Source: Thermococcus sp. (GTDB taxonomy: Archaea > Methanobacteriota_B > Thermococci > Thermococcales > Thermococcaceae). Taken from it: a stretch of DNA of 64,000 bases. Location: the NCBI RefSeq assembly GCF_027063845.1, contig NZ_JAMOQU010000101.1:1-64000 (forward strand), written 5' to 3'. This document shows, in pieces, positions 38,248 through 60,383 of this stretch. The position numbers and the translations under genes are program-made. The first letter of the stretch is position 1. The number at the start of each line of letters is the position of its first letter. The notes under the pieces were generated by a model. It was not told the DNA's origin and ran no database searches. It saw only the letters and a program-made list of their open reading frames with translations.

Positions 38248-38264
38248 AACGCTTCGTTGGACAC
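38248..38264 (-). promoter_or_regulatory. Near-consensus SurR-type site (8/9), AACgcttcGTTggaCAC
   Basis: Reverse complement of GTTn3AACn5GTT with one mismatch, followed by promoter-like GTTCAAAAAACGCTTTTTAA (38284-38303). Confidence 0.55.
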
Positions 38265-38351
38265 CTTTGGTTCAGTAAAAGCGGTTCAAAAAACGCTTTT
38301 TAACCCCGATAATGGAAATTTCAGTGTACAGAAAACGAATCCAACAAAAAT

Positions 38352-38780
38352 ATGGGCATAAAAGCACTGAAAAGTTCAATATGGGCCAGAGAGGGGATAA
38401 ACGTGCTGAAGGTTGAGAAGTGCATAGGATGTGGGCTCTGTGCCGAAGCATGCCCCTTCAATGCAATAACAATCGTAAACGACAGCACTCGCAGGATAAC
38501 CTTTGAGCCCGAGAGGTGCGGTAGCTGTGGGTTTGAGTGCAACGAAGCGTGCCCCCTGGGGGCCATAAGGGGCATTCCAGATGGGGTGACGCTCACCTTT
38601 GAGTTCGCCCGCTGTCGGGCCTGCGGCAGGAAACTTCCGTACACCGTCAAAGAGGCCGGATACATGGCCTCAAAGCTCAGGGAAGCCGGTGAGGATGATA
38701 CGCTCGTCTACCTTTGCGATGATTGCAAGAGGAAGCGGATATTTGACGTGGCCCGAAGTTATGAAGCCTACGTGAGGTGA
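38352..38780 (+). CDS. 4Fe-4S ferredoxin-type protein
   Basis: CIGCGLCAEACPFNAI and CGSCGFECNEACPLGAI cluster motifs; GTG at 38403 has a better RBS (GAGGGG) and may be the true start. Confidence 0.82.
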   Translation: MGIKALKSSIWAREGINVLKVEKCIGCGLCAEACPFNAITIVNDSTRRITFEPERCGSCGFECNEACPLGAIRGIPDGVTLTFEFARCRACGRKLPYTVKEAGYMASKLREAGEDDTLVYLCDDCKRKRIFDVARSYEAYVR

Positions 38781-39847
38781 TGAAGATGAAAGGTATGAAC
38801 TTCGCCTTCCTGTGCCGGGAGAAACCCGAGCCTACTGGAAAGAATGTCGCAATAATCGGTGCCGGACCGGCCGGCCTCGCCGCGGCTGGCTACCTCGTCT
38901 GCCAGGGGCACGAGGTTCACGTCTACGACAAGCTCCCAGAGCCAGGGGGGCTGATGCTCTTCGGCATTCCAGAGTTCAGGATTCCGATTTACAGGGTAAG
39001 GGACGGCTGTGAGAGGCTGGAAAACGCCTTCGGGGTAAAGTTCTTCCCGAGGACAAAGGTGTGCTTCGGCAATCCACACGAGAACGGCGACGACTTCGTG
39101 GAGAGGAGGATAGAGTTCGAGGACATTGTGAAGAACTACGACGCGGTTCTGATAGCGACGGGAACGTGGAACGCCTACGTGCCAACCATACCGGGTTCCG
39201 ACCTCGAGGGGGTCTTCCCAGCCCTCGAATACCTGTTCAAAATCAAGAGCGCCAAGCTCGGGCACATGGACTGGGACAAGGTGCCCCCCGTGGAGGGAAA
39301 GAGAGTCATCGTCATAGGGGCGGGACACACGGCCGTTGACGCTGCCCTGGAGAGCGTCAACCTTGGGGCCGAGAAGGTCTACCTCAGCTACCGCAGGACC
39401 ATTCGCGAGGCCCCAGCTGGAGCCTACGAGATAAACCTCCTCCAGCAGAGAGGCGTGAAGTGGCTCGAGAGGACGATGCCCGTGAGGATAATCGGCGAGA
39501 ACGGGAAGGTCAGGGCCATAGAGCTCGTCAAGACGAAGCTGAGCGAGCCCGACGAGACGGGAAGGAGAAGGCCAATACCCATCGAGGGCTCGAACTTCCA
39601 GATTGAGGTTGACTACGTGGTCTGTGCAGTTGGCCAGATGCCAACTCCTCCCTTTGCCAAGGACACGGGGATAGCCCTCGATAGGAAGGGGAGGATAGTC
39701 GTTGACAGCAGGCACATGACGAGCAGGGAAGGCGTCTTCGCGGCCGGCGATGTTGTGCTCGGGCCCTCGAAGGTTGGAAGGGCCGTGAAGGACGGCCTGT
39801 ACGCGGCCGAGAGCCTCCACTACTGGCTTATGGAGGTGAGAGAATGA
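38780..39847 (+). CDS. FAD-dependent pyridine nucleotide-disulfide oxidoreductase, glutamate synthase small-subunit (GltD)-like
   Basis: NVAIIGAGPAGLAAAGYLVCQGHEVHVYDKLPEPGGLMLFGIPEFR; RVIVIGAGHTAVDAALE; FAAGDVVLGPSKVGRAVKDGLYAAESL. Confidence 0.87.
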   Translation: MKMKGMNFAFLCREKPEPTGKNVAIIGAGPAGLAAAGYLVCQGHEVHVYDKLPEPGGLMLFGIPEFRIPIYRVRDGCERLENAFGVKFFPRTKVCFGNPHENGDDFVERRIEFEDIVKNYDAVLIATGTWNAYVPTIPGSDLEGVFPALEYLFKIKSAKLGHMDWDKVPPVEGKRVIVIGAGHTAVDAALESVNLGAEKVYLSYRRTIREAPAGAYEINLLQQRGVKWLERTMPVRIIGENGKVRAIELVKTKLSEPDETGRRRPIPIEGSNFQIEVDYVVCAVGQMPTPPFAKDTGIALDRKGRIVVDSRHMTSREGVFAAGDVVLGPSKVGRAVKDGLYAAESLHYWLMEVRE

Positions 39848-40347
39848 GGAGGATTCTCCACGTGGATTACAGCCTCTGCATCGGTTGTGAAACCTGTGAG
39901 GGAGTGTGCGAGTTCATCCATCACGGAAAGCCCAACATAAGGGTCTACTACACGGTAACGGGCATTCCGATTCCAATAACCTGCAGACATTGCGAAAAGG
40001 CCCCCTGTATGGACGTCTGTCCCTCTGGAGCGATATTCAAGGACTACGACGGGGCGGTTATAATAGACCCGGACAAGTGCATAGGCTGTATGATGTGCCT
40101 GGCCGTCTGCCCCTTTGGCGTCCCAACCTTTGACGTGAAGCTCAAGGTCATGACCAAGTGCGACATGTGCGCCGACAGGAGAAAGCTCGGAATGGCCCCC
40201 GCGTGCAGTGAGATGTGTCCTGCCGAGGCAATATTCTTTGGAAAGCCCGAGGAAATCGAGGACGAAATAAGGCGCAGGACGGCCGAAAAGATAGCGAGGG
40301 AGAGGATGTCAACAATACCGCTCGAGGGGGTTGGGAGGCTACCCTGA
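39844..40347 (+). CDS. 4Fe-4S electron-transfer protein (HydN/CooF-like)
   Basis: Four CxxCxxCxxxC-type motifs (CIGCETCEGVCEF, CRHCEKAPCMDVCP, CIGCMMCLAVCPFG, CDMCADRR..CSEMCP). Confidence 0.87.
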   Translation: MRRILHVDYSLCIGCETCEGVCEFIHHGKPNIRVYYTVTGIPIPITCRHCEKAPCMDVCPSGAIFKDYDGAVIIDPDKCIGCMMCLAVCPFGVPTFDVKLKVMTKCDMCADRRKLGMAPACSEMCPAEAIFFGKPEEIEDEIRRRTAEKIARERMSTIPLEGVGRLP

Positions 40348-40441
40348 AAGCCTTTAGATAACCATTTCTCTTTTTTAATGCATTAACGTTGGTGAATCCA
40401 GTGATTCATAGCCTAAACTCTCCCCGTCTTGAAAAATTAGA

Positions 40442-40458
40442 GTTCTAAACCTTTAGTT
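40442..40458 (+). promoter_or_regulatory. Perfect SurR-type site GTTctaAACctttaGTT
   Basis: Exact match to GTTn3AACn5GTT, directly upstream of a TATA-like CGCTTTTAT and the frhA-like gene. Confidence 0.75.
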
Positions 40459-40520
40459 CAAAAAACGCTTTTATCGTGCGTTTTGAATCTAAAAATGAGG
40501 CGAAAGTGGAGGTGAAAACT

Positions 40521-41693
40521 TTGGGCGAGGTAACCTTTGACAAAGTGTGCAGGATTGCGGGTGAGGCCAAGCTCATCCTGTACGAGGAAGACGAAGTTGT
40601 TCAGGATGCCCTCTTCATAGCGACCGCCCCCGTTAGGGGCTTCGAGAAGATGGTCGTCGGAAAGAACCCCCTCTTTGCGGTCGAGGCCGTCATGAGGATA
40701 TGCGGCCTCTGCCACGCCTCCCACGGCATAGCGGCGAGTGAAGCCATAGAGCACGCCATAGGGGTCACTCCCCCGAGGAACGGCAGGCTCATGCGGGAAG
40801 CCCTCGGCCTGATAAACAGGGCCCAGAGCCACGCTCTGCTCTTCCTCATGGTCGCGGGCGACCTGATTAAGGAGGAAAAGAGGAACGACGTGCTCTTCAA
40901 GCTCATGGACTTCCACGCAAAAATAAGCGACTACCTGCTCAAGCTCGGTGGTGCTGCTACCCACCCACCGAACCTGACTATAGGGGGAATGCTCTCAGTC
41001 CCGAAGTGGAGCGTCTTCAACAACCTGAAGGCGAGGTTCAAAGACCTCACTGCAAGCTGGGAGGCCACCGAGGAGCTTCTAATCGACGAGGACATCCAGA
41101 CCGAGATTGCGGATGAGCTTAGGGGGGCCAAAAGGCCCTTCAAATACCTCGCGAGCGGCTTCTTCTACGGGGACAGGTACAACATCGAGTGGGATAAGGT
41201 CTCAAGCGTTCCCTACTACGAATTCAGGAAGGAGGAGGCTGCGAGGGAATCAACGACGCTCGTCTCGTTCTACAACGGCGAGAAGGTCGAGACGGGACCG
41301 AGGGCGAGGATGATTACGTACCGCGAGTTCAGGGACGAATCCCTCTACGGTTTACACCTCGCGAGAATAGAGGACACGAGGCTGGCCATCCAGAGGCTCG
41401 GCGAAATCCTTGACGAGATTAGAATGGAGGAGCCCTTTAGGGCTGGGGACATAACTTTCAGGCCGGGGAAGGGTGTTGGCGTTTACGAAGCTCCAAGGGG
41501 AACGCTCATCCACTACGTCGAGCTCGGGGAGGAGGGAAGGGTTCTGAAGTCAAGGATAGTAGTTCCAACCATGTTCAACATCCCGGTCATGGAGGAGATG
41601 GCGAAGGGTCTGAGCGTTAAAGCCGCAGAGGCCGTTATGAGGCTCTACGACCCGTGTATACCCTGCACGACCCACGTCGTGAGGTTGAGGTGA
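40521..41693 (+). CDS. frhA: FrhA-like [NiFe]-hydrogenase large (alpha) subunit
   Basis: RICGLCHASHG N-terminal and DPCIPCTTH C-terminal Ni ligands; ORF opens at 40476 but TTG at 40521 follows RBS GGAGGTG and lies downstream of the predicted TSS. Confidence 0.87.
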   Translation: MGEVTFDKVCRIAGEAKLILYEEDEVVQDALFIATAPVRGFEKMVVGKNPLFAVEAVMRICGLCHASHGIAASEAIEHAIGVTPPRNGRLMREALGLINRAQSHALLFLMVAGDLIKEEKRNDVLFKLMDFHAKISDYLLKLGGAATHPPNLTIGGMLSVPKWSVFNNLKARFKDLTASWEATEELLIDEDIQTEIADELRGAKRPFKYLASGFFYGDRYNIEWDKVSSVPYYEFRKEEAARESTTLVSFYNGEKVETGPRARMITYREFRDESLYGLHLARIEDTRLAIQRLGEILDEIRMEEPFRAGDITFRPGKGVGVYEAPRGTLIHYVELGEEGRVLKSRIVVPTMFNIPVMEEMAKGLSVKAAEAVMRLYDPCIPCTTHVVRLR

Positions 41694-42379
41694 TGCTCAT
41701 GGAGAAGCTCAAGGTTCTCCACGTGGATTTTGCCGGGTGTGAGGGATGCAACGTCAGCATAATCAGAGCTTATCCCAAGCTGATGAACGAGATAGAGCTC
41801 GACATCTCCTACCTCCGCGACGGCCCTCCCAAGTACGACGAATACGACGTTGCCTTAATAACGGGCGGGGCCTGCATGAACGAACCGAGAATCCTCGAGG
41901 AGCTGAGGGAGATAAGGGAAAAGGCCAAGGTCATTGTCGCCTTCGGCTCTTGCGCGTCGCTCGGCGGAATACTGCGCTTCGCCCGAGGGGGCCAAGAGCC
42001 GAGGCCAGACCACAGGAACTTCCAGCCGATAAACAGCGTAATACCAGTTGACTACTCCATCCCAGGCTGTCCCCCAACGCCACAGATGCTCCAGTCGTTC
42101 TTCAAGTTCTTCATGGCGGGGAACGAGTCGAGGCTCAGGCTGTTCAAGGTGACCGCTGGCCTGAAGAAGCTGAGCGGATTCGACCTCATCGACGACATAG
42201 TTCTCACGGGCCTGTGCATAGGCTGTGGCGCCTGCGAGCTGTCCTGCCCGACCGGCGCGATAAGGCTCGTGGAGAAGAGGCCAACCATAATCCAGGAGAG
42301 GTGCATAAGGTGTGGAACCTGCTACATCCGCTGTCCGCGCGCGTCCCAGTTAATATGCCTTGGAGGTGAAAAGCCATGA
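41693..42379 (+). CDS. frhG: FrhG-like [NiFe]-hydrogenase small (gamma) subunit with ferredoxin domain
   Basis: VDFAGCEGCNVSIIRAYP, AFGSCASLGG, PGCPPTPQML, C-terminal CIGCGACELSCPTGAI / CIRCGTCYIRCP. Confidence 0.87.
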   Translation: MLMEKLKVLHVDFAGCEGCNVSIIRAYPKLMNEIELDISYLRDGPPKYDEYDVALITGGACMNEPRILEELREIREKAKVIVAFGSCASLGGILRFARGGQEPRPDHRNFQPINSVIPVDYSIPGCPPTPQMLQSFFKFFMAGNESRLRLFKVTAGLKKLSGFDLIDDIVLTGLCIGCGACELSCPTGAIRLVEKRPTIIQERCIRCGTCYIRCPRASQLICLGGEKP

Positions 42380-43206
42380 TGCCAATCGGTGAAAACCTCC
42401 TCGGACAGTTTCGCGGTGTTTATCTTGCCCGGGCGAAGGACGAGGAGATACTCAAGAGGAAGGTCGCGAGCGGTGGGGCGGTAACGGCGCTCCTCTGCTA
42501 CGCCCTCGATAAGGGACTCGTCGATGGAGTCGTGACCTCAAAGAGGGTGAAGGGGTTCGAGGGCAAAGCCGTTGTCGCGCGCAACAAGGAGGAACTGCTT
42601 GAGGCAGCTGGCAACAGCTGGAGCATAGTTCCATTCGCGGCCAGGATAAAGGCGAAGATCGAGGAGGAAGACCTCAAGGAGGTCGCGATAGTCTGCCTGC
42701 CCTGCCAGGCCCAGTTCTTCGGCCAGATGAGGGACTTCCCGATACTCGAGACGGACTTCGGCAACAGGATTAAGTACATAATCAGCCTGTTCTGCATGGG
42801 CACCTTCGCGTTCGAGGCCTTCCTGAACTACCTCCGCGTCCGCTATGGCGTCAGGGCGGAGAACATAAAGAACATCCGCCTGGGAAGGGAGTTCCTGGAG
42901 GTTCACCACAACGGCACGGTTCTCGCGATACCGCTGAAGGAGGCTTTCTCCTACCTCCAGACTGGCTGTCTGGTGTGCACCGACTACACAGGACTGTGGA
43001 GCGACGTCTCGGCTGGATTCGTCGAGAGCGAGCCAGGATGGACGGTACTTATAACGAGAAACGCCCGCGGAGAGGAGCTTGTGAAAGGGGCGGAAAAAGA
43101 GGGCTACATAGAGCTCCGCGACGGTTCCCATGTCCTCGGGGACATTCTGAAGAGGGCGAGGGAAAAGGTTGCCAGGGCGCAGAGGAACATGGCACAGCTA
43201 TTCTGA
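42376..43206 (+). CDS. frhB: FrhB-like hydrogenase beta subunit (coenzyme F420 hydrogenase beta family)
   Basis: KVASGGAVTALLCYALDKGLVDGVV; CLPCQAQFFGQMRD; LFCMGTFAFEAFLNYL; CLVCTDYTGLWSDVSAGF. Confidence 0.85.
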   Translation: MMPIGENLLGQFRGVYLARAKDEEILKRKVASGGAVTALLCYALDKGLVDGVVTSKRVKGFEGKAVVARNKEELLEAAGNSWSIVPFAARIKAKIEEEDLKEVAIVCLPCQAQFFGQMRDFPILETDFGNRIKYIISLFCMGTFAFEAFLNYLRVRYGVRAENIKNIRLGREFLEVHHNGTVLAIPLKEAFSYLQTGCLVCTDYTGLWSDVSAGFVESEPGWTVLITRNARGEELVKGAEKEGYIELRDGSHVLGDILKRAREKVARAQRNMAQLF

Positions 43207-43334: not shown

Positions 43335-43351
43335 AACCTTTGGTTGGAAAC
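43335..43351 (-). promoter_or_regulatory. Perfect SurR-type site, reverse orientation: AACctttgGTTggaAAC
   Basis: Exact reverse complement of GTTn3AACn5GTT, 18 bp before a TATA-like ACCGTTTTAAGC (43367-43377). Confidence 0.72.
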
Positions 43352-43470
43352 TAAGCTGTTAAAAAACCGTTTTAAGCAAAAACACGAAGCTGATTCTGAA
43401 GGAAAACATGGACATCTAGGTAATAGATGAGCATTGATGACTATAAAAATACATAAAGGGGGTGTTCCCG

Positions 43471-45603
43471 TTGGAAGAAAAGCTCGTACCGGTCGTTTGT
43501 CCGTACTGCGGGGTTGGGTGCAGGCTGTACATAAAAAGCCTTGACGGCTACCCGCGGGGAATCGAGTACGCAAAGGACATACCGGGCATCTCAAACGAGA
43601 ACGGAAAGCTCTGTCCGAAGGGCAACGCCGTTCTCGAGTACCTCCTGGCGAAGGACAGGCTCAAGAAGCCTCTGAAGGCAACGGAGCAGGGCAAGTTCGT
43701 CGAGATAAGCTGGAGCGAGGCCATAAAGGAGGTCGCCGAGAGGCTTAGGGCCTACTCCAAGGACGACCCCAACGCGATGATGTTCTTCGGTTCCGCGAGA
43801 ACCTTCAACGAGCCCAACTACCTCATCCAGAAGCTGGCCAGAATGCTCGGAACGAACAACGTTGACCACTGTGCTCGCTTGTGCCACTCCTCAACGGTCT
43901 CCGGCCTGAAGGCCGTCTTTGGCGCTGGGGCGATGACCAACACCTACAAGGACATCGAGGAGGCGAACGTAATCTTCATCATAGGCCACAACTACGCCGA
44001 GACCCACCCGGTTGGCTTCCGCTACGTTCTAAAGGCCAAGGAGAGGGGCGCAAAGGTCATCGTCGCCGACCCGAGGTTCACGAGGACGGCGTGGTTCGCG
44101 GACATATTCCTCCAGCACTATCCAGGAACCGACATAGCGCTTCTCAACGGCATGATGCACGTCATCATCAAGGAGAACCTCTACGACGAGGACTTCGTGA
44201 TGAGAAGGTGCGTCGGCTTCGACGAGCTGGCAAGAACCGTCGAGAAGTTCACACCAGAATACGTTGAGAAGATAACCGGCGTTCCGGCCGAGCTCATAGT
44301 CCAGGCCGCGAGAACCTTCGCAACCGCTGGAAAGGGTGTCATAACCTGGGCGATGGGCCTGACCCAGCACACCCACGGCCACGACAACGTCAGGTTGGCC
44401 GCAACGCTCTCGGCAATATGTGGCTACCAGGGGAAGGAGGGCTGTGGAGTCTCGCCGATGCGCGGTCAGAACAACGTCCAGGGCGCGTGCGACCTCGGAG
44501 TCCTCCCGAACGTCTTCCCCGGTTACCAGGCAGTTACCGACCCCGAGAAGAGGAAGTTCTTTGAGGAGTTCTGGGGCGTCGAGCTGAGCGGTGAAGTCGG
44601 CCTCACCGTCATCGAAGCGGCCCACGCCATAGAGAAGGGCAAGGTGAAGGCCTACTACATCATGGGCGAGAACCCGGTCATAAGCGACGCCAACACGAAC
44701 CACGTTCTCAAAGCCCTCCAGAAGCTTGAGTTCATGGTCGTCCAGGACATAGTGCCAACTCCAACGATGGAGTTCGCCGACATAGTCCTGCCAGCGGCCG
44801 CGATGCTTGAGAACGAGGGTTCCCTCACCAACACGGAAAGGAGGGTGCAGTGGAGCTTCCAGGCGCTGAACCCGCCAGGTGAAGCTAGGCCCGACTGGTG
44901 GATAGTGAGCGAAATCGGAAAGGCCGCAGGGTTCTCCGGAGACGGGGCGAGAGGATTCAGGTACACCTCCCCTGAGGACATTCTCAGGGAAATCAACGCG
45001 TGCACGCCTCAGTACGGGGGCATAACGCCCGAGAGGCTCAAGAGCAACCTGGCCGGAATCCACTGGCCGTGTCCGAGCGAAGACCATCCTGGAACGAGGG
45101 TTCTCTACAAGGAGAGGTTCCTGACTCCAGACGGAAAAGCCCACCTCGCGGCGGTTGACTACAGGGGGCCAGCTGAGGTGCCGGACGAGGAGTACCCGTT
45201 CCTGCTCACCACGGTAAGGTACGTCGGCCACTACCACACGCTCACGATGACGGGAAGGAGCAAGGCCCTTGTCAAGCGCTGGCCAGAGCCCTTGGCCGAG
45301 ATACACCCAGAGGACGCCGAAAGGCTCGGCATAAAGACCGGCGACTGGATAAAGATAGAGACGAAGAGAGGTGCTTACCCGGTCAGGGCCAAGGTCACCA
45401 GGACCGTCAAGAAGGGGGTAATAGCGGTTCCCTGGCACTGGGGGGCAAACGTCCTCACCAACGACGCCCTCGACCCGGTCTCAAAGATACCCGAAACCAA
45501 GGCCTGCGCCTGCAGAATAGCGAAGATAAGCGAAGAGGAAGCGAGGGAGCTGATGAAGGCCGTTCCAAAGGTTATACCCGAGTTTGAGGTCGTGAAGGGG
45601 TGA
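43471..45603 (+). CDS. fdhA: Formate dehydrogenase alpha subunit, molybdopterin/tungstopterin oxidoreductase (cysteine form)
   Basis: CPYCGVGCRLYI 4Fe-4S motif; NNVDHCARLCHSSTVSGL with Cys at the active-site position; GMGLTQHTHG..; MRGQNNVQGACDLG. TTG start after AAAGGGGGTG; ORF opens at 43462. Confidence 0.92.
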   Translation: MEEKLVPVVCPYCGVGCRLYIKSLDGYPRGIEYAKDIPGISNENGKLCPKGNAVLEYLLAKDRLKKPLKATEQGKFVEISWSEAIKEVAERLRAYSKDDPNAMMFFGSARTFNEPNYLIQKLARMLGTNNVDHCARLCHSSTVSGLKAVFGAGAMTNTYKDIEEANVIFIIGHNYAETHPVGFRYVLKAKERGAKVIVADPRFTRTAWFADIFLQHYPGTDIALLNGMMHVIIKENLYDEDFVMRRCVGFDELARTVEKFTPEYVEKITGVPAELIVQAARTFATAGKGVITWAMGLTQHTHGHDNVRLAATLSAICGYQGKEGCGVSPMRGQNNVQGACDLGVLPNVFPGYQAVTDPEKRKFFEEFWGVELSGEVGLTVIEAAHAIEKGKVKAYYIMGENPVISDANTNHVLKALQKLEFMVVQDIVPTPTMEFADIVLPAAAMLENEGSLTNTERRVQWSFQALNPPGEARPDWWIVSEIGKAAGFSGDGARGFRYTSPEDILREINACTPQYGGITPERLKSNLAGIHWPCPSEDHPGTRVLYKERFLTPDGKAHLAAVDYRGPAEVPDEEYPFLLTTVRYVGHYHTLTMTGRSKALVKRWPEPLAEIHPEDAERLGIKTGDWIKIETKRGAYPVRAKVTRTVKKGVIAVPWHWGANVLTNDALDPVSKIPETKACACRIAKISEEEARELMKAVPKVIPEFEVVKG

Positions 45604-45608
45604 TTTGA

Positions 45609-46109
45609 ATGGCCAGGAAGACCATCTTTATCGATTTTTCAAAGTGCATTGAGTGCCGCGCCTGTGAGGTCGCCTGTGAGAGAGAGCACAACGGCAGGTC
45701 GTTCATCAACGTCTTCGAGTGGCAGGAAATGGCCGCTATGGCCCTCAACTGCCGCCACTGTGAGAAGGCCCCGTGTGTCGAGGTCTGTCCCACCAACGCC
45801 CTCTACCGCGACGAGGATGGAGCAGTCCTGCTCGCTCCGCAGAAGTGTATCGGCTGTCTCATGTGTGGCATAGTCTGCCCCTTCGGAATCCCAGAGCTCG
45901 ACGTACTCGACAAGATAATGATGAAGTGCGACCTCTGCTCCCACAGGAGGGCCGAAGGAAAGCTCCCGGCCTGTGTAGAGACCTGCCCGACCGACGCGCT
46001 CCTCTTCGGGGACTTCAACGATATACAGCGGATGAGGAGAAGGGAATTCACGGAGAAAGCGATAGAGATAGCCAAGAAGGGGGAGAGAATCTCCCTGAGA
46101 GCCCTCTGA
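45609..46109 (+). CDS. 4Fe-4S electron-transfer protein (HydN/HycB-like)
   Basis: CIECRACEVACERE, CRHCEKAPCVEVCPTNAL, CIGCLMCGIVCPFG, CDLCSHRR..CVETCPTDAL. Confidence 0.88.
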   Translation: MARKTIFIDFSKCIECRACEVACEREHNGRSFINVFEWQEMAAMALNCRHCEKAPCVEVCPTNALYRDEDGAVLLAPQKCIGCLMCGIVCPFGIPELDVLDKIMMKCDLCSHRRAEGKLPACVETCPTDALLFGDFNDIQRMRRREFTEKAIEIAKKGERISLRAL

Positions 46110-46119
46110 GGTGGTGGGC

Positions 46120-47562
46120 ATGGAAGAACTTTTCCTTCTTTCCTTCTCAATTCCTCTCGCCGCGGGGCTTATGCTGTTCAAACTCGATGGTAAGCGGGCG
46201 GATTATTTCATGCTCATCACTGTCATCATCACAACCCTCCTCAACGTCCTCGGGGTTTACGAGTTCTGCTCCTCTGGAATGAAAACCATCCATAAGGCCC
46301 TGCTGACCTCAAAAAGCCTGGGCGAGGTTTACGGCGTTTTGATAGACCCGATGAGCGTTGCGGTCGGCCTTGTGGTATCAACGGCGGGCTTGCTCTTCAT
46401 GCTGTACGCGGTTGATTACATGAGCCCGAACAACAGGGAACATCCCGTTTACGAGGGTAAGGGACGCTTTTACGCCTGGATGGTGCTCTTCATAGGCGCG
46501 ACCCTTGCCTTCGTGTACTCGTCGTCGGTTCTCCAGTTGCTGATATTCTTCGAGATAATGAGCCTCGCCTGCTGGGGTGTCGTGAGCTACTACGGAAGCA
46601 AGGAGGCCAAGCGGTCCGCTTACAAGGCCTTCATCGTCACTAACTTCGGCGCGATGATAGGTCTCTACACTGCCGTTGGCGTTGGAATTACACACCTCCA
46701 CAATCTGAGCCTCTTCGCCTACTCCTCCCTCGAGAGCCATTTGAAGCTGATTGTGTTCCTGGCCGTTGTTATAGCGGCCTTCACGAAGAGCGCCCAGTTC
46801 CCCTTCTACTCATGGCTACCTGATGCGATGGTTGCCCCAACACCAGCGAGCGCCTTCCTTCACGGCGCGGCGATGGTCGAGATGGGTGTCTTCCTCCTCG
46901 CGAGATTCATCCAGTTCATGCAACCGATTCCGAGGGAAGGCTTCTACGTCATGGCGGGCCTGATAATAGCCACCCAGCTAATCTGCATCCTCATGTATCC
47001 CTTCCAGAGGGATGCGAAAAGGCTCTTGGCCTATTCAACGATAGCCGAATCTGGCTTGATGTACGTCGCCCTCGCAACGGCCGTCCTCGGCATGGAGAGC
47101 GGTCTTCAGGCCTCGGTCTTCCAGCTCTTCAACCACGCCTACATCAAGGGCTTAGCATTCCTCACCGCTGGAACCTTCAGCTACGCCCTCGGAACCCTTG
47201 AGATGGACAGGATAAGGGGACTAATCAAATCCCCGGTGGTCGGCTACGGCTGGACCTTTGCGCTCCTCGGTTTGGCTGGCGTCCCGCCTTTCGGCGTGTT
47301 CTTTGGAAAGCTCGGCATACTCAGCAACGCGAACGCAATGAGGGAGAGCATGCTCGTCCTGGCTATGTTCGCCCTCCTCCTGCTGGACTCGGCGGTGTTT
47401 CTCATGGTGTCGCTGAAGAGGGTGCACTCGATGGTCTTCAGCGAAGGCAACGAGAGAGTCGAGATAACGCCACTGATGAAGGTCGTGATGGTAATCCTGC
47501 TGATACTGGCGATAATAGCCCCGTACATAGCCTACCCGCTGGTCGCTAAGGTGGGGTGGTGA
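46120..47562 (+). CDS. Formate hydrogenlyase membrane subunit, Mrp-D/NuoN-type
   Basis: 14+ TM; SAQFPFYSWLPDAMVAPTPASAFLHGAAMVEMGVF; KRLLAYSTIAESGLMYVAL proton-translocating subunit signature. Confidence 0.85.
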   Translation: MEELFLLSFSIPLAAGLMLFKLDGKRADYFMLITVIITTLLNVLGVYEFCSSGMKTIHKALLTSKSLGEVYGVLIDPMSVAVGLVVSTAGLLFMLYAVDYMSPNNREHPVYEGKGRFYAWMVLFIGATLAFVYSSSVLQLLIFFEIMSLACWGVVSYYGSKEAKRSAYKAFIVTNFGAMIGLYTAVGVGITHLHNLSLFAYSSLESHLKLIVFLAVVIAAFTKSAQFPFYSWLPDAMVAPTPASAFLHGAAMVEMGVFLLARFIQFMQPIPREGFYVMAGLIIATQLICILMYPFQRDAKRLLAYSTIAESGLMYVALATAVLGMESGLQASVFQLFNHAYIKGLAFLTAGTFSYALGTLEMDRIRGLIKSPVVGYGWTFALLGLAGVPPFGVFFGKLGILSNANAMRESMLVLAMFALLLLDSAVFLMVSLKRVHSMVFSEGNERVEITPLMKVVMVILLILAIIAPYIAYPLVAKVGW

Positions 47563-51785: not shown

Positions 51786-53516
51786 ATGAAGGAATGGGCG
51801 CGTAAGATTACCGATGAGAAGGTTCGGGAGAGGTACGTTAACGAGGTCATCGAGAGGTTCAGGGATAAGATTATCCGCGTCGAGAGGAACGCTGACAACC
51901 AGTGGATGATCGAGATTCGGAAGGAAGACCTTCCTGAGGTCATAGGCTACATAATAAACCACCCTGAGTGGAAGGAGACCCAGCTGTCCACGATGGTCGG
52001 GGCCGACGAGAGACCCCTGAGGGGCAAGTTCAGCCTGATCTACTGGATATCGATAAACGGAGCAAGCGGGGACGTGTTCTTCGGCATAAAGACCTACATC
52101 TCGGAGGACGATCCGAAGTTCCCCTCGGTCACACCGATTCACCCGGGCGCTAACTGGTACGAGAGAGAAGTAAAAGACCTGCTCGGCCTCATCCCGGAGG
52201 GCCATCCTGACCCGAGGCGCTTGGTTCTCCCGGATGACTGGCCAGAAGGGGTCTATCCCCTCAGGAAGGACTTCCACTACACCGACAGCCCGAAGAGAGA
52301 GTTCACCGACGAGACCAAGTATCCCTATAGGGAGCCACCCAAGGGAACCGCCGTCTTCCCGCTCGGGCCGTACCACGTTGCGCTCGACGAGCCGGGCCAC
52401 TTCAGGCTCTACGTCAAGGGAGAGGAGATAGTTGACGTTGACTACAGGCTGTTCTACCAGCACAGGGGAATAGAGAAGATAGGCGAGAACAGGCTGACCT
52501 ACGACCAGGTCAACTTCATAGCCGAGAGAATATGCGGAATCTGCGGCACGGCCCATGCCCTCGCCTACGCTCAGGCTGTTGAAGCGGCGGGGGGTGTGGA
52601 AGTCCCCGAGAGGGCCGAGTACATCAGGACAGTCATGGCGGAGATAGAGAGGCTCCACAGCCACCTCCTCAACCTCGGTTTGGCCTGCCACGACGTCGGC
52701 TTCGACAAGGGCTTCATGGATGCGTTCAGGCTGAGGGAGCACGTGATGTGGCTGGCCGAGAGGCTCACGGGGAACAGGAAGACCTACGGAATGGTCGTCA
52801 TCGGTGGCGTCAGAAGGGACTTCCTCGAATACAGGAGGAGCATGATCGAGAAGGTCATCAGGGAGCTCAGGGAGGGCTTCCAGAAGTGGGCCGACCAGAC
52901 GCTATCAACCAAAACTTTCGTGAAGCGCTGTGAGGGCGTTGGAGTTCTCTCCTACAAGGACGCGAAGAGGTGGAGCTCGGTCGGGCCCTGGGCGAGGGGC
53001 TCGGGAAGGGACCTCGACGCGAGAAGGGACCACCCGTTTGCGGCCTACAAGTACCTCGACTTCAAGGTTCCGGTTTACAAGGAGGGAGACGTTCTGGCGA
53101 GATGTTTAGTAAGGGCGGAGGAGATTCTTGAGTCCATCTGGATAATAGAGCAGGCCCTCGACGAGATGCCGGGAGGGGACATCCTCGCGGAGTGGAAGGA
53201 GATACCTCCTTACCAGGAAGCGGTAGGCTTCACCGAGGCGCCGAGGGGAGAAGACGTCCACTACGTCATGACGGGTGAGGGTAACAGGCTCTACCGCTGG
53301 AGGATAAGGGCGTCAACATACAATAACTTCCCCGCTTTGCCAGACGCTATGAGGGGTAACAGCGTGGCCGATGCCGTTCTGATAATAGCCTCCATGGACC
53401 CGTGCTACTCCTGTACCGAGAGGGTTCAGGTCGTTGACGCGAGGAGCGGTAAGGTGAGGGTTCTCACGGAGAAAGAGCTCACCGAACTGTCAAGAAAGGC
53501 CAGCAGGGGGGTCTGA
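51786..53516 (+). CDS. Formate hydrogenlyase large-subunit fusion (NuoC-NuoD/HycE-like)
   Basis: N-terminal NuoC-like domain (EREVKDLLGLIPEGHPDPRRLVLPDDWPEGVYPLRKDF), then RICGICGTAHALAYAQAVE and DPCYSCTER. Confidence 0.9.
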   Translation: MKEWARKITDEKVRERYVNEVIERFRDKIIRVERNADNQWMIEIRKEDLPEVIGYIINHPEWKETQLSTMVGADERPLRGKFSLIYWISINGASGDVFFGIKTYISEDDPKFPSVTPIHPGANWYEREVKDLLGLIPEGHPDPRRLVLPDDWPEGVYPLRKDFHYTDSPKREFTDETKYPYREPPKGTAVFPLGPYHVALDEPGHFRLYVKGEEIVDVDYRLFYQHRGIEKIGENRLTYDQVNFIAERICGICGTAHALAYAQAVEAAGGVEVPERAEYIRTVMAEIERLHSHLLNLGLACHDVGFDKGFMDAFRLREHVMWLAERLTGNRKTYGMVVIGGVRRDFLEYRRSMIEKVIRELREGFQKWADQTLSTKTFVKRCEGVGVLSYKDAKRWSSVGPWARGSGRDLDARRDHPFAAYKYLDFKVPVYKEGDVLARCLVRAEEILESIWIIEQALDEMPGGDILAEWKEIPPYQEAVGFTEAPRGEDVHYVMTGEGNRLYRWRIRASTYNNFPALPDAMRGNSVADAVLIIASMDPCYSCTERVQVVDARSGKVRVLTEKELTELSRKASRGV

Positions 53517-53517
53517 A

Positions 53518-54015
53518 ATGGCCGTCACGCTGAAGTACCCCTTCGTGAAGATTGAGGCCCCTCCCGAGTACAGGGGAGTTCCGCACATAAACCCGAGGCT
53601 CTGCATAGGCTGTGGCGCCTGCGTTAACGCCTGTCCCGCCGATGCGCTGCTGAGGATAGACGATTACGAAAAAGGAACGAGGAAAATCGTCCTCGACGTT
53701 GGCAGGTGCATACGCTGTGCCCGCTGTGACGAGGCCTGCCCGACGGGAGCGATAAGGATGACGAGGAACTTCGAGGTGGCAACCCTTGACAGGAAAGACC
53801 ACGTCGAGGTCGTTGAGCTAAGGCTCCACAGGTGTCCCAACTGCGGAAGCTACACGGACTACACCGAGAGGGCCCTCGAAAAGGCCCTCCAGATACTCCC
53901 AGAGGGGCTCTTTGACGGGGATGAAATCAGAAAACGCGCAATCCTCTGCAGGAACTGCCGGAGGAAGCTCACCGTTGATGATGCCGTAGAGGCGAGCAGG
54001 GAGGTGGTAGAATGA
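53518..54015 (+). CDS. NuoI/HycF-like 2x[4Fe-4S] ferredoxin subunit
   Basis: CIGCGACVNACPADALL; CIRCARCDEACPTGAIRM; C-terminal extra CxxC pairs. Confidence 0.9.
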   Translation: MAVTLKYPFVKIEAPPEYRGVPHINPRLCIGCGACVNACPADALLRIDDYEKGTRKIVLDVGRCIRCARCDEACPTGAIRMTRNFEVATLDRKDHVEVVELRLHRCPNCGSYTDYTERALEKALQILPEGLFDGDEIRKRAILCRNCRRKLTVDDAVEASREVVE

Positions 54016-54863
54016 GGCTCCGCTCGCTTTATGTTTTCCACCTCGACACCGGAGCCTGCAACGGGTGCGAGATAGAGCTCTTCGACATTCTGACCCCGTA
54101 TTATGACGCTGAAAGGCTTGGCGTCAGGCTTGCCGCTTCACCGAGGCACGCCCACGCGATGGCCGCAACGGGCCCGCTCACGAGGCAGGCCTACTACGCG
54201 GCCAAAGAGGCAATAAAGGCGATGCCCCCGAAGCCGAGGATAATAGTGGCCATAGGAACGTGCGCATGCAGCGGGGGGATATTCTACAACGGCTATCCGA
54301 TATACAGACGTCCTGAGAGCGGCAGGGAGGGACAAGAATATCCTAGGAGGGGCGGAATATTCGAGCTGGTTCAGGACTTGAGGGACGAGGGAGAATACGT
54401 TGGCCCCGTTGTTTACATCCCCGGCTGTCCGCCGAGGCCCGAGGAAATACTGTATGGAGTAGCCTTGGCTCTAGGACTCGTCGAGAAGCAGGTTAAAGGG
54501 GAGTACTACACTGAAGAGGTCGGCTTCGAGCTTCCCGAGTACCCAATCGAGGAGAGGATACGCCTGAGCCTTAGGGAGAGGCTGAAGTACGTCGTTGGCT
54601 ACTTCGACAGGGAGAAGGTTCTCGAGGACTTCATGGGGCTCGTCGCGAAAGCCAAGAGCGCGGAGGAGCTACACGGACTCATTCAGGGCTACTGCCTGAA
54701 GAACCCTGACCCGAGGGTTTCACTCGCCATGAGGGTTCTCAAACGGGAGTTCCTCAGGCTGAAGGAGAAGTACGGATGGGAGGTGAAAGGGAGTGCCGAA
54801 GCTCTTCAAGGCGAGGTACGTGGGCTTCAGGTCTCCGCTGACGGCGATGCTGGACCACGTTGA
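54012..54863 (+). CDS. NuoB/HycG-like hydrogenase small subunit
   Basis: LDTGACNGCEIELFDILTPYYD; AIGTCACSGGIFYNGYP; PGCPPRPEEILYGVALALGL. Confidence 0.9.
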   Translation: MRLRSLYVFHLDTGACNGCEIELFDILTPYYDAERLGVRLAASPRHAHAMAATGPLTRQAYYAAKEAIKAMPPKPRIIVAIGTCACSGGIFYNGYPIYRRPESGREGQEYPRRGGIFELVQDLRDEGEYVGPVVYIPGCPPRPEEILYGVALALGLVEKQVKGEYYTEEVGFELPEYPIEERIRLSLRERLKYVVGYFDREKVLEDFMGLVAKAKSAEELHGLIQGYCLKNPDPRVSLAMRVLKREFLRLKEKYGWEVKGSAEALQGEVRGLQVSADGDAGPR

Positions 54864-55071
54864 CGCCGACTTCACCCTCTACGAGGAGGTCGGTGAGGTG
54901 TCGGTGGAGACGTGCAAACTGATACGGAAGGTCTTCGGACGTTCATACCTTACCTTAGATGACCTTCCGGGGGTCCTCAAGCTCAAACTCCCCGGAAGGG
55001 ACAGGGAAGTCCTGATGAGGGCCCTCAGCGGCCTGAAACCCGATGAAAAGCTCAAATTGGAAAGGGGGTGA
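54793..55071 (+). CDS. Small hypothetical protein between hydrogenase small subunit and formate channel
   Basis: 92-aa ORF from GTG at 54793 with an AGGTGA RBS, in typical operon spacing. Confidence 0.65.
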   Translation: MPKLFKARYVGFRSPLTAMLDHVDADFTLYEEVGEVSVETCKLIRKVFGRSYLTLDDLPGVLKLKLPGRDREVLMRALSGLKPDEKLKLERG

Positions 55072-55077
55072 GCAAAG

Positions 55078-56112
55078 ATGGTGGATGCAAAGGAGAAAAT
55101 ACTGTACGGGGTGGATACGACCTTTGAGGGCATAGCCAAGAAGGCCACCCCGAAGTTTAAGACAACCCCTGGAAGGCTGCTCTTCGCCGGCTTTATGGCG
55201 GGTGCCTTCATAGCCTTCGGCTTCCTGCTGGCCGTCGTGGCCGGCTGTATCGCCAAGTACCCGCCGTTTGCAGTGGGTGACACCTTCAACAAGGCGCTCT
55301 TCAAGGTCCTGCTCGGTGCGGTCTTCCCGGTCGGCCTCATAGCGGTCGTCCTTGGAGGAGCGGACCTCTGGACAGGCAACGTCCAGTTCCTCAGCTCGGC
55401 CAAGGTCAAGGGCTACGCCGACTTCAAGTGCGTCCTCTACAACTGGTTCGGAAGCTACGGTGGAAACTTCATAGGCTCTATATTCCTAGCGCTCATGGCG
55501 GTTCCGCTCACGGGACTCTTCGGCCACGTCGGCGACCCGAACCTCTTCGGCAACACAGTCGTTGCAATAGCGCACGGCAAGGTCTCAAAGGACATACTGG
55601 CCCTGTTCTTCCTTGGAATAGGATGTAACTGGCTCGTCAACCTCGCCATCTGGCAGTCAGCCAGGGTGCAGGACGGGGCCGGCAAGATACTGGCCATATG
55701 GTTCCCGATATTCGCCTTCGTTGCCATAGGCTTCGAGCACGCGATAGCGAACATGTGGGCGATTCCGACGGGCATAATAGCCAGCAACTACGCCATAACC
55801 TGGAGCCAGTTCTTCCACAACGTAATCCCAGTGACCTTCGGCAACGCGGTTGGAGGCTTCCTCTTCGTGGCGTTCTACTACTGGTACCTCAGCCACCCCG
55901 AGCTGACGGCCGAGAGACTCGTCAAGGAAATCGTTGACTTCCTCGTCGTGTTCGCAGTGTTCTGGATTCTGGCCACGCTGATACCCGCTGGAATAGGCAT
56001 CGCCCTTGACAAGGCCATGGGAAGCGGTGCCATGTACGCCGTCCCGGTGGTGCTTTCAATCTACTACATAGTCGGCACCTTTGCGCTTGCCAAGGTTGCC
56101 AAGCCCGCCTGA
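55078..56112 (+). CDS. focA: Formate/nitrite (FNT) family transporter
   Basis: FMAGAFIAFGFLLAVV; DLWTGNVQFLSSAKVKG; NWFGSYGGNFIGS; FFLGIGCNWLVNLAIW; GFEHAIANMWAIPTG FNT signatures. Confidence 0.92.
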   Translation: MVDAKEKILYGVDTTFEGIAKKATPKFKTTPGRLLFAGFMAGAFIAFGFLLAVVAGCIAKYPPFAVGDTFNKALFKVLLGAVFPVGLIAVVLGGADLWTGNVQFLSSAKVKGYADFKCVLYNWFGSYGGNFIGSIFLALMAVPLTGLFGHVGDPNLFGNTVVAIAHGKVSKDILALFFLGIGCNWLVNLAIWQSARVQDGAGKILAIWFPIFAFVAIGFEHAIANMWAIPTGIIASNYAITWSQFFHNVIPVTFGNAVGGFLFVAFYYWYLSHPELTAERLVKEIVDFLVVFAVFWILATLIPAGIGIALDKAMGSGAMYAVPVVLSIYYIVGTFALAKVAKPA

Positions 56113-56151
56113 CGGCCCTTTCCTTTTTTCACAATTCGAGAGGTGAGACTG

Positions 56152-56430
56152 ATGTCGTCTGAGGTTGTTATGCTCATGAAAATCATCCTCCCACTCTACG
56201 TGACGGCCTTCCTCCTCTACACGGTCAGAGCCATCAAAGGCCCAACAATACCAGACATAATCCTCGCAGTAGACTGCATGAGCTTCGACATAGCCGCATT
56301 CATGGCAATCCTCGCGATCTACTTCAAAAGCGTGTATCTCATCAGTGGAGCCATAACCCTCGCACTCTGGGCCTACTTGCTCGACGTTTACATCGCAAAC
56401 CACCTCACAAAAAAGGAGGTGGGAGCGTGA
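56152..56430 (+). CDS. mnhF: Mrp-type Na+/H+ antiporter subunit MnhF
   Basis: RAIKGPTIPDIILAVDCMSFDIAAFMAILAIYF. Confidence 0.88.
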   Translation: MSSEVVMLMKIILPLYVTAFLLYTVRAIKGPTIPDIILAVDCMSFDIAAFMAILAIYFKSVYLISGAITLALWAYLLDVYIANHLTKKEVGA

Positions 56431-56774
56431 ACATACTTTTCCTCCTCGGCGCAATCCTAGTAACCATCGGCGGAATCTGCGACCTCTTTGGAGCAATCGG
56501 CCTTCTAAAATTCCCAAACTTCTACGTCAGACTACACGCGGCAACAATCGGAACAATAGGAGGAGCAGCAATCCCCCTCTTCGGAGTAGCACTACTAGCA
56601 CTCGGCACAAACATACCACACAAGCACGCAATAGCAGGAGCCAGCCTCATCACGGGGATAATCACCCTCCTCGCCGCACCAGCAGGAGCCACAGCATTAG
56701 CATACGCCGCCCACAAAACTAACGCTGTGGAGTGGAAACCCAAAATAGACCACCTAAAGGAGGCGAGAAAATGA
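56427..56774 (+). CDS. mnhG: Mrp-type Na+/H+ antiporter subunit MnhG
   Basis: LLGAILVTIGGICDLFGAIGLLKFPNFYVRLHAATIGTIGG. Confidence 0.9.
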   Translation: MNILFLLGAILVTIGGICDLFGAIGLLKFPNFYVRLHAATIGTIGGAAIPLFGVALLALGTNIPHKHAIAGASLITGIITLLAAPAGATALAYAAHKTNAVEWKPKIDHLKEARK

Positions 56775-57025
56775 TTGAGTTACACTTAACAATCCTCGCA
56801 ATAACCGCACTAATCGGATTAATCGCCTCCTACTTAGCAATAACGGAAAAAGACCTTCTCAAGGCTGTGGGCTACTCCGCAGTCCAGGCAATAGCCTATG
56901 CAATCGCATTCTACCTCCTAATGGCGCCCGACATCGTTCTGGCATACGTCGCAATCGCAGTGGGAATATACTCGGCACTCCTCATCTTCATCATCGGGAA
57001 AACCGAACGATACGAGGTGATGTAA
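56771..57025 (+). CDS. DUF4040-family Mrp antiporter subunit (MnhB N-terminal-like)
   Basis: SYLAITEKDLLKAVGYSAVQAIAYAIAFYLLMAPDIVLAYVAIAVGIYSALLIFIIGKTERYE. Confidence 0.85.
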   Translation: MIELHLTILAITALIGLIASYLAITEKDLLKAVGYSAVQAIAYAIAFYLLMAPDIVLAYVAIAVGIYSALLIFIIGKTERYEVM

Positions 57026-57784
57026 ATGAAACGCTTAACCGGCCTGCTTACAATCCTCATCATCACACTCGGAGTGGCAATTTACCTCGCCCAGAACATT
57101 ATCCCACCCGAAAACCTCCACCCGCTCGGAGAGTACTACCTCGAAAACAGCTACTTCGGAGAACACTCAGCAAAAAGCCCGGAGGTAGTAACCTCAATCC
57201 TCTGGGACTACCGTGGCGTTGACACGCTGTTCGAAACGGCCGTCTTCTTCCTCGCAATAATCGGAAGCCTCACCATCTTCAGACTGAACAGAGAGCAAAG
57301 CGAAGAAGCAAAACAAGGCGAGCCAAAACCACAGCTTCCAGAGCCTGTCGTAGTGGTCACAAAACTCACGGTTGCAATGATTTTAGCGGTCTCAGCCTCA
57401 ATAGCCCTTCACGGGCAATTAACGCCCGGCGGCGGCTTCCAGGGCGGTTCGGCCTTGGCGGTAGCACCCCTCCTCGTAATAGCCGCCTACACCAAATACG
57501 CCCTCGAGAAAAACGGTTTAGACAAGACGAGGGCAATAATAATCCGCTCCATTGGCTTACTCGGAATAGCACTCACCGCCCTAACACCACTCCTCGTCAG
57601 CGGTTATATCATGCAGAACCAGCCAATCTTTCCAGGAGAAGCCCTCGGAGTGCCCTTAGGAGGCTCACTCGTGCTGTACAACCTCTTCGAGTACCTCGCG
57701 GTAGGAGCGGGCTTCACGGCAGTCTTCCTGCTTCTCAGCATTCCAGAGGAGAAGTTCAAGAAATTCCTGGGGGTGAGGAGATGA
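57026..57784 (+). CDS. mnhB: Mrp antiporter MnhB-type subunit fused to an MbhE-like N-terminal domain
   Basis: N-terminal ...VVTSILWDYRGVDTLFETAVFFLAIIGS matches MbhE-type IVTDIVFDYRGYDTIGEATVLFTAIAGA; C-terminal HGQLTPGGGFQGGSALA is MnhB. Confidence 0.87.
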   Translation: MKRLTGLLTILIITLGVAIYLAQNIIPPENLHPLGEYYLENSYFGEHSAKSPEVVTSILWDYRGVDTLFETAVFFLAIIGSLTIFRLNREQSEEAKQGEPKPQLPEPVVVVTKLTVAMILAVSASIALHGQLTPGGGFQGGSALAVAPLLVIAAYTKYALEKNGLDKTRAIIIRSIGLLGIALTALTPLLVSGYIMQNQPIFPGEALGVPLGGSLVLYNLFEYLAVGAGFTAVFLLLSIPEEKFKKFLGVRR

Positions 57785-58185
57785 TATCACTCCTATGGAG
57801 CATTACGATAGTCTCACTCCTCGCGACGCTCATCATAAGCGTTTACGGGATTGTCGCGAAACCAAACCTCGTGAAAAAGCTCATTGCATTGACAATCTTC
57901 GGGGATACGGCAAACGTTCTCGTAGTCCTCCTCGGTTATAGAGTAATCTACCCCGTGAAGCCACCAATCTTGCCCGAACTCTCAAAGAGGGCCCTCGGCG
58001 AGTTCGTCAAAACGGCCGTTGACCCGCTTCCCCAAGCGTTAGTCATAACGGCGGTAGTCATTGGCATGGCGGTCAACATTCTCATTGCCTTCGCGGTAAT
58101 TCAAATTTACAGGATTTACGGGACGCTGGACGTTAGAGAAGTCGGGAAAACACTCCCCGAGTTACTGAGGAGGGAGGAAGCATGA
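57781..58185 (+). CDS. mnhC: Mrp-type Na+/H+ antiporter subunit MnhC
   Basis: NuoK-like: YGIVAKPNLVKKLIALTIFGDTANVLVVLLGYR...DPLPQALVITAVVIGMAVNILI. Confidence 0.88.
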   Translation: MISLLWSITIVSLLATLIISVYGIVAKPNLVKKLIALTIFGDTANVLVVLLGYRVIYPVKPPILPELSKRALGEFVKTAVDPLPQALVITAVVIGMAVNILIAFAVIQIYRIYGTLDVREVGKTLPELLRREEA

Positions 58186-58667
58186 GGGGGGTTGTAGCAA
58201 CGGCCTTACTCGCCTTCATCACGTACATCATCTTCACAGGCTCACTCACACCCTACGATTTGGTTACTGGCGTAATAGTTGGAGTAGCCATCGGCCTCCT
58301 CGTTGGAAGATTCCTCGTGGAGAACGATGCCAAAGCCCTCAATCCAGTTAGATGGGCCTGGGGCTTGGTTTACTTCCTCTGGTACTTCCTTGTCGCGGAA
58401 GTCAAGGCGCACGCGGACGTGATGAGGCGGATAATCACTGGTGACATTGAACCCGGCATAGTGAAGGTCCCATTGAAGGTGAAGAGCGAGTACGCGAGGA
58501 CTCTCGTCGCCAACTCGATTACGAACACTCCTGGGACAGTTGTCGTTGACGTGGACGAGGATTACCTGTACGTGAACTGGATTAACGTGACTACTGATGA
58601 GCCTGAAGAAGCCAAAAAAGAAATCTGTGAGGAGTTTGAGAAGTACGCGGAGAGGATATTCGAGTGA
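58182..58667 (+). CDS. mnhE: Mrp-type Na+/H+ antiporter subunit MnhE
   Basis: VVDVDEDYLYVNWINV, RIITGDIEPGIVKVPLKVKSEYARTLVANSITNTPGT. Confidence 0.9.
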   Translation: MRGVVATALLAFITYIIFTGSLTPYDLVTGVIVGVAIGLLVGRFLVENDAKALNPVRWAWGLVYFLWYFLVAEVKAHADVMRRIITGDIEPGIVKVPLKVKSEYARTLVANSITNTPGTVVVDVDEDYLYVNWINVTTDEPEEAKKEICEEFEKYAERIFE

Positions 58668-58677
58668 GGTGGTGAGG

Positions 58678-60246
58678 ATGAACGTGGTTGGCTTAACCCC
58701 AATAATCCCAATCCTCTTCGCCTTCGCATTACCGCTAACTTCAATCCTCGTCAAGGGCGACAGGAGGATTGTGCAGGCTTACGCTTTGACAGGCACGGGC
58801 TTGACTCTCCTAAGCGCCGTCAAACTCTTCCAGCTGGCGTACTCTTCAAAAGAACCATTGATTTACACTTTCGGCGGCTGGACTGCTCCAGTGGGCATAA
58901 TCTACGAGGCCGACAAGATGAGCGCTTTAATAGCCCTGGTAACTGCCACACTAATGTTCCTCATTGCAATCTACAGTTACCGCTATCTTGAGGGCGAAGC
59001 CGGCCTGGAGTGGTATTACACGCTTTACCTCGGGCTTGAGGCTGGCTTGCTCGGCGTCCTCTTAACGGGTGACGCCTTCAACCTCTTCGTCATGATTGAG
59101 GTTACGAGCATTGCGGCTTACGCTTTAGTCATGTACTACAGGGACAGGGGGGATTCAGTAGTTGCTGGATTAAAATACGCGCTGATTGGCGCGGTTGGGA
59201 CGACGATGTACTTTATAGCCCTGGGAGTCCTTTATTACGGCTTTGGAACGCTGAACTTCGCAAACTTAAGCGCGTTGGTTCACGGGATGAGCTTCCCGGT
59301 GGTTGGGAAGCCTTACGGGGATGTTGTCATTGCCTCTGGAGTTGCTTTGGCTTTAGCCACTTGGGCGTTCCTGATTAAGGCTGCCGTGTTTCCAAACCAC
59401 TTCTGGCTTCCGGAGGCTCATCCAGCGGCCCCGAGTCCAATTTCGGCAATCCTTTCAGGAGTGGTGGTTAACGTTGGCGTTTACGCTTTGGTCAGGTTCC
59501 TGTACACGGTTTACGGTGGAGCTTTAACTTCCAGCCTGTCCAGCGTGGTTCACGCGCTCAGCGTCGTCCTAATGCTCCTTGGGGCGGTTTCAGCCCTGTT
59601 CGGGGCGTTAATGATGCTTGTCCAAAAGGACGTGAAGAGGCTGATTGCTTACTCGACAATAATGCACATGGGTTACCTTGTAATGGCCGTAGGCATTGGC
59701 ACTCAGCTTGCCCTGAGCGCGGCAATCTTTCACATGGTGAATCATGCTATCGCCAAGGCTTTGCTCTTCCTCTCGGCTGGAGTCTTCATTCACGCCGCGG
59801 GCTCGAGGAACTTGGAGGATTTGGCGGGGCTTGGCAGGAAGATGCCAGTGGCGACGTTCAGTTTGGCGGTGGCTTCGCTGAGTCTCGTTGGTGTTCCACC
59901 GTTCAACGTGTTCTTCAGTAAGTTACTTCTCTTCGACGTGTTCTTGGATGAGAATCCAGTGCTGGCTTTGGTGCTTGTTGTTAGTTCAGTGACTGCCTTG
60001 GTGGCTTATGTGAGGGTGTTTTATGAGGTTTGGCTCGGGAAGCCCAGGAAGGAGGTTGAGGGCAGGGAATGCTGGAGCATGAGCGGTGTTTGCCTGGTCC
60101 TTGCCTTGGCATGCGTTGTTGTTGGCTTGGTTGCTCCGTATGTGGTCAGTCACTACGTTGACCCTGCGGCGGCTCAGGCTGTGGATTACAAGGTGTACAT
60201 CCAGAAGGCCTTGGAGTACGCGGCAAAAACCAAACTCGGCCTCTGA
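58678..60246 (+). CDS. mnhD: Mrp-type Na+/H+ antiporter subunit MnhD
   Basis: KAAVFPNHFWLPEAHPAAPSPISAILSGVVVNVGVYALVRFL; KRLIAYSTIMHMGYLVMAV; start MNVVGLTP after GAGGTGGTGAGG. Confidence 0.9.
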   Translation: MNVVGLTPIIPILFAFALPLTSILVKGDRRIVQAYALTGTGLTLLSAVKLFQLAYSSKEPLIYTFGGWTAPVGIIYEADKMSALIALVTATLMFLIAIYSYRYLEGEAGLEWYYTLYLGLEAGLLGVLLTGDAFNLFVMIEVTSIAAYALVMYYRDRGDSVVAGLKYALIGAVGTTMYFIALGVLYYGFGTLNFANLSALVHGMSFPVVGKPYGDVVIASGVALALATWAFLIKAAVFPNHFWLPEAHPAAPSPISAILSGVVVNVGVYALVRFLYTVYGGALTSSLSSVVHALSVVLMLLGAVSALFGALMMLVQKDVKRLIAYSTIMHMGYLVMAVGIGTQLALSAAIFHMVNHAIAKALLFLSAGVFIHAAGSRNLEDLAGLGRKMPVATFSLAVASLSLVGVPPFNVFFSKLLLFDVFLDENPVLALVLVVSSVTALVAYVRVFYEVWLGKPRKEVEGRECWSMSGVCLVLALACVVVGLVAPYVVSHYVDPAAAQAVDYKVYIQKALEYAAKTKLGL

Positions 60247-60264
60247 GCCCTTCTTTAACTTTTG

Positions 60265-60281
60265 GTTTACAACGAGGCGTT
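60265..60281 (+). promoter_or_regulatory. Perfect SurR-type site GTTtacAACgaggcGTT
   Basis: Exact GTTn3AACn5GTT upstream of AAAACCGTTTTAAGC promoter module (60313-60327) and the mbh-like operon. Confidence 0.78.
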
Positions 60282-60383
60282 TCTTACCTTTTTTTGACAA
60301 ACTGAGCTTTGGAAAACCGTTTTAAGCGGGAAAGAGAAGTCAAAATCGAGGGTAAACAAAAATGTTAATCCGGAGGTGGTAGC

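Follow-up and report, generated by a model that had tools for sequence, protein, structure and literature searches.

Predicted SurR operators upstream of frh, fdh-mfh-mnh and mbh in a Thermococcus genome

Three transcription units in a 64,000-nucleotide stretch of Thermococcus DNA (hereafter the window), frhAGB, fdh-mfh-mnh and mbh, are preceded by similar short sites, which raises the question of whether all three answer to a single sulfur- and redox-responsive regulator. We consider it roughly 93% probable that SurR, the ArsR-type regulator with which Thermococcales respond to sulfur and redox state, has its operators at these sites; the estimate covers the whole explanation, including the redox switch, activation, and a ferredoxin/FAD operon and an AhpD-like gene as probable further targets. 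That one SurR regulon spans the three units had been proposed from the letters of the window only (the sequence-only reading), and is supported by a SurR gene in the genome, intergenic enrichment of the sites, their fixed placement in promoters and conservation in orthologues. Judged by synteny and the presence of a formate transporter, the window belongs to the Group 1 Thermococci (Holden and Sistu 2023).

The published SurR consensus, GTTn3AACn5GTT, served as the pattern for scanning both window and genome. Six exact matches are found in the window versus 0.33 expected from dinucleotide-shuffled windows (sd 0.57), an 18-fold excess, and none of the shuffled windows reached six. The matches that the sequence-only reading had listed at 40442-40458(+), 43335-43351(-) and 60265-60281(+) were all recovered. 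Further exact matches are located at 60257-60273(-), 5805-5821(-) and 5813-5829(+). The palindrome at 5805-5829 precedes an AhpD-like gene, so that exact matches do not, as had been claimed, occur solely before the hydrogen/formate operons. A one-mismatch site reported at 38248-38264 is likewise present, but such matches are common in the window (19 versus 8.5 expected, about twofold).

In the host genome, a 94% complete Thermococcus draft of 1.916 Mb in 134 contigs, there are 43 exact sites, compared to 6 for a control consisting of the same consensus read backwards. Across 61 Thermococcus genomes the corresponding numbers are 2147 and 556, and the SurR pattern outnumbers its reversed control in every one of the 61. 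About 9-11 of the 43 sites in the host genome (approximately one quarter) lie inside predicted genes; a simple gene call places 10 of 43 wholly within genes, with two weak calls and two nominally intergenic sites that read as coding. Since the window is 91% coding, yet only about a quarter of the sites are intragenic, intergenic placement is strongly enriched, and coding matches stay near the control level. The regulon reading thus survives the objection that many equally good matches might be present in coding DNA.

The genome also encodes the regulator. Pdo lies at 5584-6237 of contig C112, and the divergent gene adjacent to it is SurR (NCBIfam NF047699, 396 bits, cut-off 250); its N-terminal region contains LTCTECYF with the CxxC switch motif CTEC, and the genome scan places a consensus site between surR and pdo. 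Additional sites are found at an mbs-type antiporter operon, hypC, hypF and an Nfn-type FAD/NAD-binding subunit, which together with surR/pdo are known SurR targets, all of them with sites here, and also at a CoA-disulfide-reductase-family flavoprotein and a small ferredoxin (the ferredoxin being assigned by reading), which are in keeping with that regulon. Three further SurR sites belong to a second Fdh paralogue of the host genome (contig C115, 46100-56400, loci L234-L236), which has hypC/hypF and genes of antiporter type in its neighbourhood.

The promoters of frh, fdhA, mbh and the AhpD-like gene contain GTTn3AAC(n5GTT), and almost all orthologues with a promoter of their own have kept the site. 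All sites lie upstream of BRE/TATA, with a core-to-TATA distance of 26 nt for frh, fdhA and the AhpD-like gene, 40 nt for the ferredoxin/FAD operon and 54 nt for mbh. The predicted operator of frhAGB (40442..40458, + strand, GTTCTAAACCTTTAGTT) consists of the core and a downstream arm, followed by the TATA element CTTTTATC (40468..40475, +). Among orthologous frhA promoters, the core starts exactly 26 nt 5' of TATA in 24 of 24 and the downstream GTT arm is retained in all of them, with an exact core in 18. The frhA-frhG-frhB genes (F420-hydrogenase-like) occupy 40476..43206 (+). The frhA reading frame opens at 40476, directly adjoining the TATA element; because alignments with orthologues begin mostly at residues 14-16, the true start is likely the TTG at 40521, preceded by GGAGGTGA.

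The fdhA-mfh-mnh operon (43462..60246, +) codes for a formate hydrogenlyase with antiporter subunits and includes a formate transporter at 55078-56112 (Form_Nir_trans at 55078-56109). Its predicted SurR operator (43335..43351, - strand) combines the palindromic core GTTGGAAAC (43343-43351) with the arm AACCTTTG, so that the additional half-site lies upstream of the core, unlike the downstream arm in frh; the TATA element GTTTTAAG follows at 43369..43376 (+). An exact core is situated 26 nt before TATA in 15 of 15 scored fdhA promoters of this Group-1-type synteny. Two more were left unscored, one with the core at the same distance and a variant TATA that the script missed (L212), the other with another gene directly 5' (L200). 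The reverse orientation emphasized by the sequence-only reading is an artefact of applying an asymmetric consensus to a palindromic core: GTTn3AAC reads the same on both strands, and the core stands 26 bp from TATA as in frh, so the orientation means little and a functional difference arising from it was ruled out. FdhA paralogues that do not share this synteny (L215, L217-L226) have promoters with no core, and for other groups a corresponding absence is described in PMC10025317. In-frame TGA codons seen in FdhA paralogues are most likely due to the alignment overrunning natural stops.

A standard mbh operon starts at 60384 (+) and continues past the window's end at 64000 to contig position 67976, with MbhL at 65898-67175 carrying CGIC and CLSC motifs. 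The match at 60257-60273(-) turns its predicted operator into a full palindrome, AACn5GTTn3AACn5GTT (60257..60281, AACTTTTGGTTTACAACGAGGCGTT), and both arms are present in the mbhA promoters of 28 of 30 genomes. The TATA element, again GTTTTAAG (60319..60326, +), lies 54 nt from the core, and across mbh promoters the distance is 54-55 nt where the main TATA was picked. The spacer between operator and TATA (60282..60318, +) is itself conserved across the genus and appears to continue the 14-bp half-site repeat in a degenerate form (agreement at 10 of 15 positions, P = 0.006 by shuffling). The figures for other mbh promoters, which are not independent, are 9-10 of 15 positions (P between 0.002 and 0.034). 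As the phase was noticed before it was tested, the array is a lead only. By the same test none of 13 other SurR sites has a significant 14-bp array, which gives no support to such an array as a general feature of SurR sites; a 40-bp spacing at gdhA was also considered as 26 + 14, and its spacer is free of half-sites by eye. The fdhA (43348-43376) and mbh (60294-60326) promoters share AAACTRAGCT next to TATA as well as a TATA-proximal AAAACCGTTTTAAGC, which suggests that the fdh promoter derives from an mbh promoter or that both descend from a common ancestor, or else a second common control element.

The ferredoxin / GltD-like FAD oxidoreductase / Fe-S protein operon (38352..40347, +) is the weakest of the four units. 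Its promoter lacks an exact core and differs from the consensus by one mismatch; the degenerate SurR-like operator (38248..38286, +) has GTT at 38256, 38270 and 38284, a 14-bp period, with the core 40 nt before TATA. Taken by motif alone the match at 38248/38256 is weak; it gains support from the surrounding promoter, which is conserved in four orthologues (L241-L244), again without an exact core, and ACACCTTTGGTTCAGYAAAAGCGGTTCAAAAAACGCTTTTTAACC is nearly invariant in L240-L244. A 17-base stretch, GTTCAAAAAACGCTTTT, is identical in the ferredoxin/FAD and frh promoters. When tested as a 14-bp array, the spacer gives P = 0.057. The SurR site proposed here by the sequence-only reading stands as a one-mismatch site in a conserved promoter, and SurR control of the operon is plausible, though less well supported than for the other three units.

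The AhpD-like gene (5869..6225, +; CMD family, CEWC motif) is a predicted SurR target that the first reading had missed. Its predicted operator, the full palindrome AACGAGTGGTTGAGAACGTTTCGTT (5805..5829), stands 26 nt before TATA. The core is found in the promoters of 17 of 18 Thermococcus orthologues, and in all 14 scored promoters it lies 26-27 nt from TATA.

Several other explanations of the sites have to be weighed. That promoter DNA contains these matches by chance, the motif being short and AT-rich, is hardly credible: one-mismatch matches are indeed frequent, and the quarter of genomic exact matches inside genes is little above the reversed-control number, yet the exact matches exceed the shuffles 18-fold and the genome-wide control 7-fold, an intergenic dinucleotide model predicts just 0.0115 exact sites per kb, and the core-to-TATA distance is kept across species while the flanks vary. 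Shuffles, reversed-pattern control and conservation together exclude a chance origin. It is very unlikely, if less so, that the conserved element belongs to the core promoter in a BRE-like role, or that it is bound by a regulator other than SurR whose palindrome is similar. The motif does touch the BRE region in frh, and the second conserved element AAACTRAGCT is common to the mbh and fdh promoters. However, a distance of 26-55 nt separates the core from TATA downstream of it. The core is also missing from paralogous fdhA promoters, fits the published SurR consensus exactly and recurs in this genome at targets already known for SurR.

A more serious alternative, though still improbable, is that the SurR operators are real but function only at mbh and frh, with fdh and the ferredoxin/FAD operon set mainly by formate or another signal. 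It would fit the single arm of the fdhA site, the degenerate ferredoxin/FAD core and the increase of fhl transcripts on formate described for T. paralvinellae in PMC10025317. Against this, 15 of 15 scored genomes have an exact fdhA core at equal distance from TATA, the Fdh2 and Mfh2 proteins of T. onnurineus were undetected on sulfur (PMC4463584), and later enzyme data are without a formate effect (PMC11959275). Because of the same T. paralvinellae transcripts, SurR need not be the sole control of fdh. Control of all three units by SurR has its own counterpoint in mbh, where the core stands 54-55 rather than 26 nt from TATA, so that a single contact geometry fails to fit all sites.

If these sites are SurR operators, reduced SurR (CxxC thiols) would bind the palindromic core GTTn3AAC when elemental sulfur is absent, with assistance from an outer half-site on one side or on both (AACn5, n5GTT). 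From its position upstream of BRE/TATA it would activate frhAGB, fdh-mfh-mnh and mbh; the AhpD-like gene and the ferredoxin/FAD operon would probably be activated too. Sulfur would oxidise the thiols to a disulfide, binding would be lost and the hydrogen genes would be switched off. The sites, their placement, conservation and enrichment and the regulator gene are observed; the redox switch, upstream activation and the sulfur response of orthologues are adopted from the literature, and we infer SurR binding and activation in this organism. A further extension, which we regard as tentative and rather unlikely to hold in full, is a fixed geometry with the core 26-27 bp before TATA and either half-site supporting. 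The mbh palindrome would then be displaced outward by 28 bp and linked to TATA by a 14-bp-phased array (26 + 2x14), possibly bound by a cooperative SurR oligomer, and the regulon would have a conserved, previously unreported member in the AhpD-like redox gene.

The general logic of SurR, active when reduced, lost on sulfur and activating from upstream sites, is described in PMC12162507. The P. furiosus regulator (Lipscomb 2009, 2017; Yang 2010, as cited there) shares family, CxxC switch, consensus and activation upstream of TATA with the system predicted here; its classical targets, unlike those here, are not known to include the formate and Frh units. For Group 1 Thermococci, section 8.2 of PMC10025317 assigns a motif upstream of BRE/TATA to each of frh, fhl, nfd and mbh. 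There, as in the window, frh, mbh and an fhl that includes a formate transporter are syntenic, and each has GTTn3AAC(n5GTT) just upstream of BRE/TATA; an analysis of TATA spacing and palindrome arms, given here, was not found in the available part of that account. In the proteome of T. onnurineus, Frh, Fdh2, Mfh2 and Mbh are lost or lowered on sulfur in cultures that also differ in carbon source (PMC4463584). The placement of fdh-mfh-mnh and Frh under SurR, which the sequence-only reading had offered as its own extension, is therefore supported in substance and had been anticipated by PMC8595942 (Table 2), section 8.2 of PMC10025317 and PMC4463584: SurR sites at hydrogen/formate genes are correct, conserved in the genus and already known for related species.

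The genus-wide footprints and controls confirm that a single sulfur/redox switch stands before the genes for hydrogen, for formate and for the Frh-type hydrogenase at once. Since Frh can reduce TrxR (Jung 2020, cited in PMC10025317), the sites would form the wiring for a proposed feedback from H2 to SurR. For the question of how an archaeal activator contacts TFB/TBP, the 26-bp spacing is of interest, as is the phased array at mbh; both, together with the AhpD-like target, are possibly new to the literature. A literature search, with the primary P. furiosus SurR target papers beyond its reach, found no link between SurR and an alkylhydroperoxidase in Thermococcales.

The closest published comparison is T. 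piezophilus (PMC8595942, Table 2), with a long motif at 127 for Mrp-Mbh, a short one at 123 for Fdh2-Mfh2-Mnh2 and a long one at 71 for the F420-reducing hydrogenase. The same units have sites at similar distances here, about 119 (mbh), 128 (fdh) and 79 (frh) nt before the likely starts, whereas the ferredoxin/FAD and AhpD-like units are missing from that table. In T. piezophilus, a further short site lies 21 nt before the mbh start; it is absent from the mbh promoter of the window and present in some relatives: in some Thermococcus mbh promoters (L157, L163, L168 and L169) an extra SurR core is located immediately 5' of the start codon and 3' of TATA.
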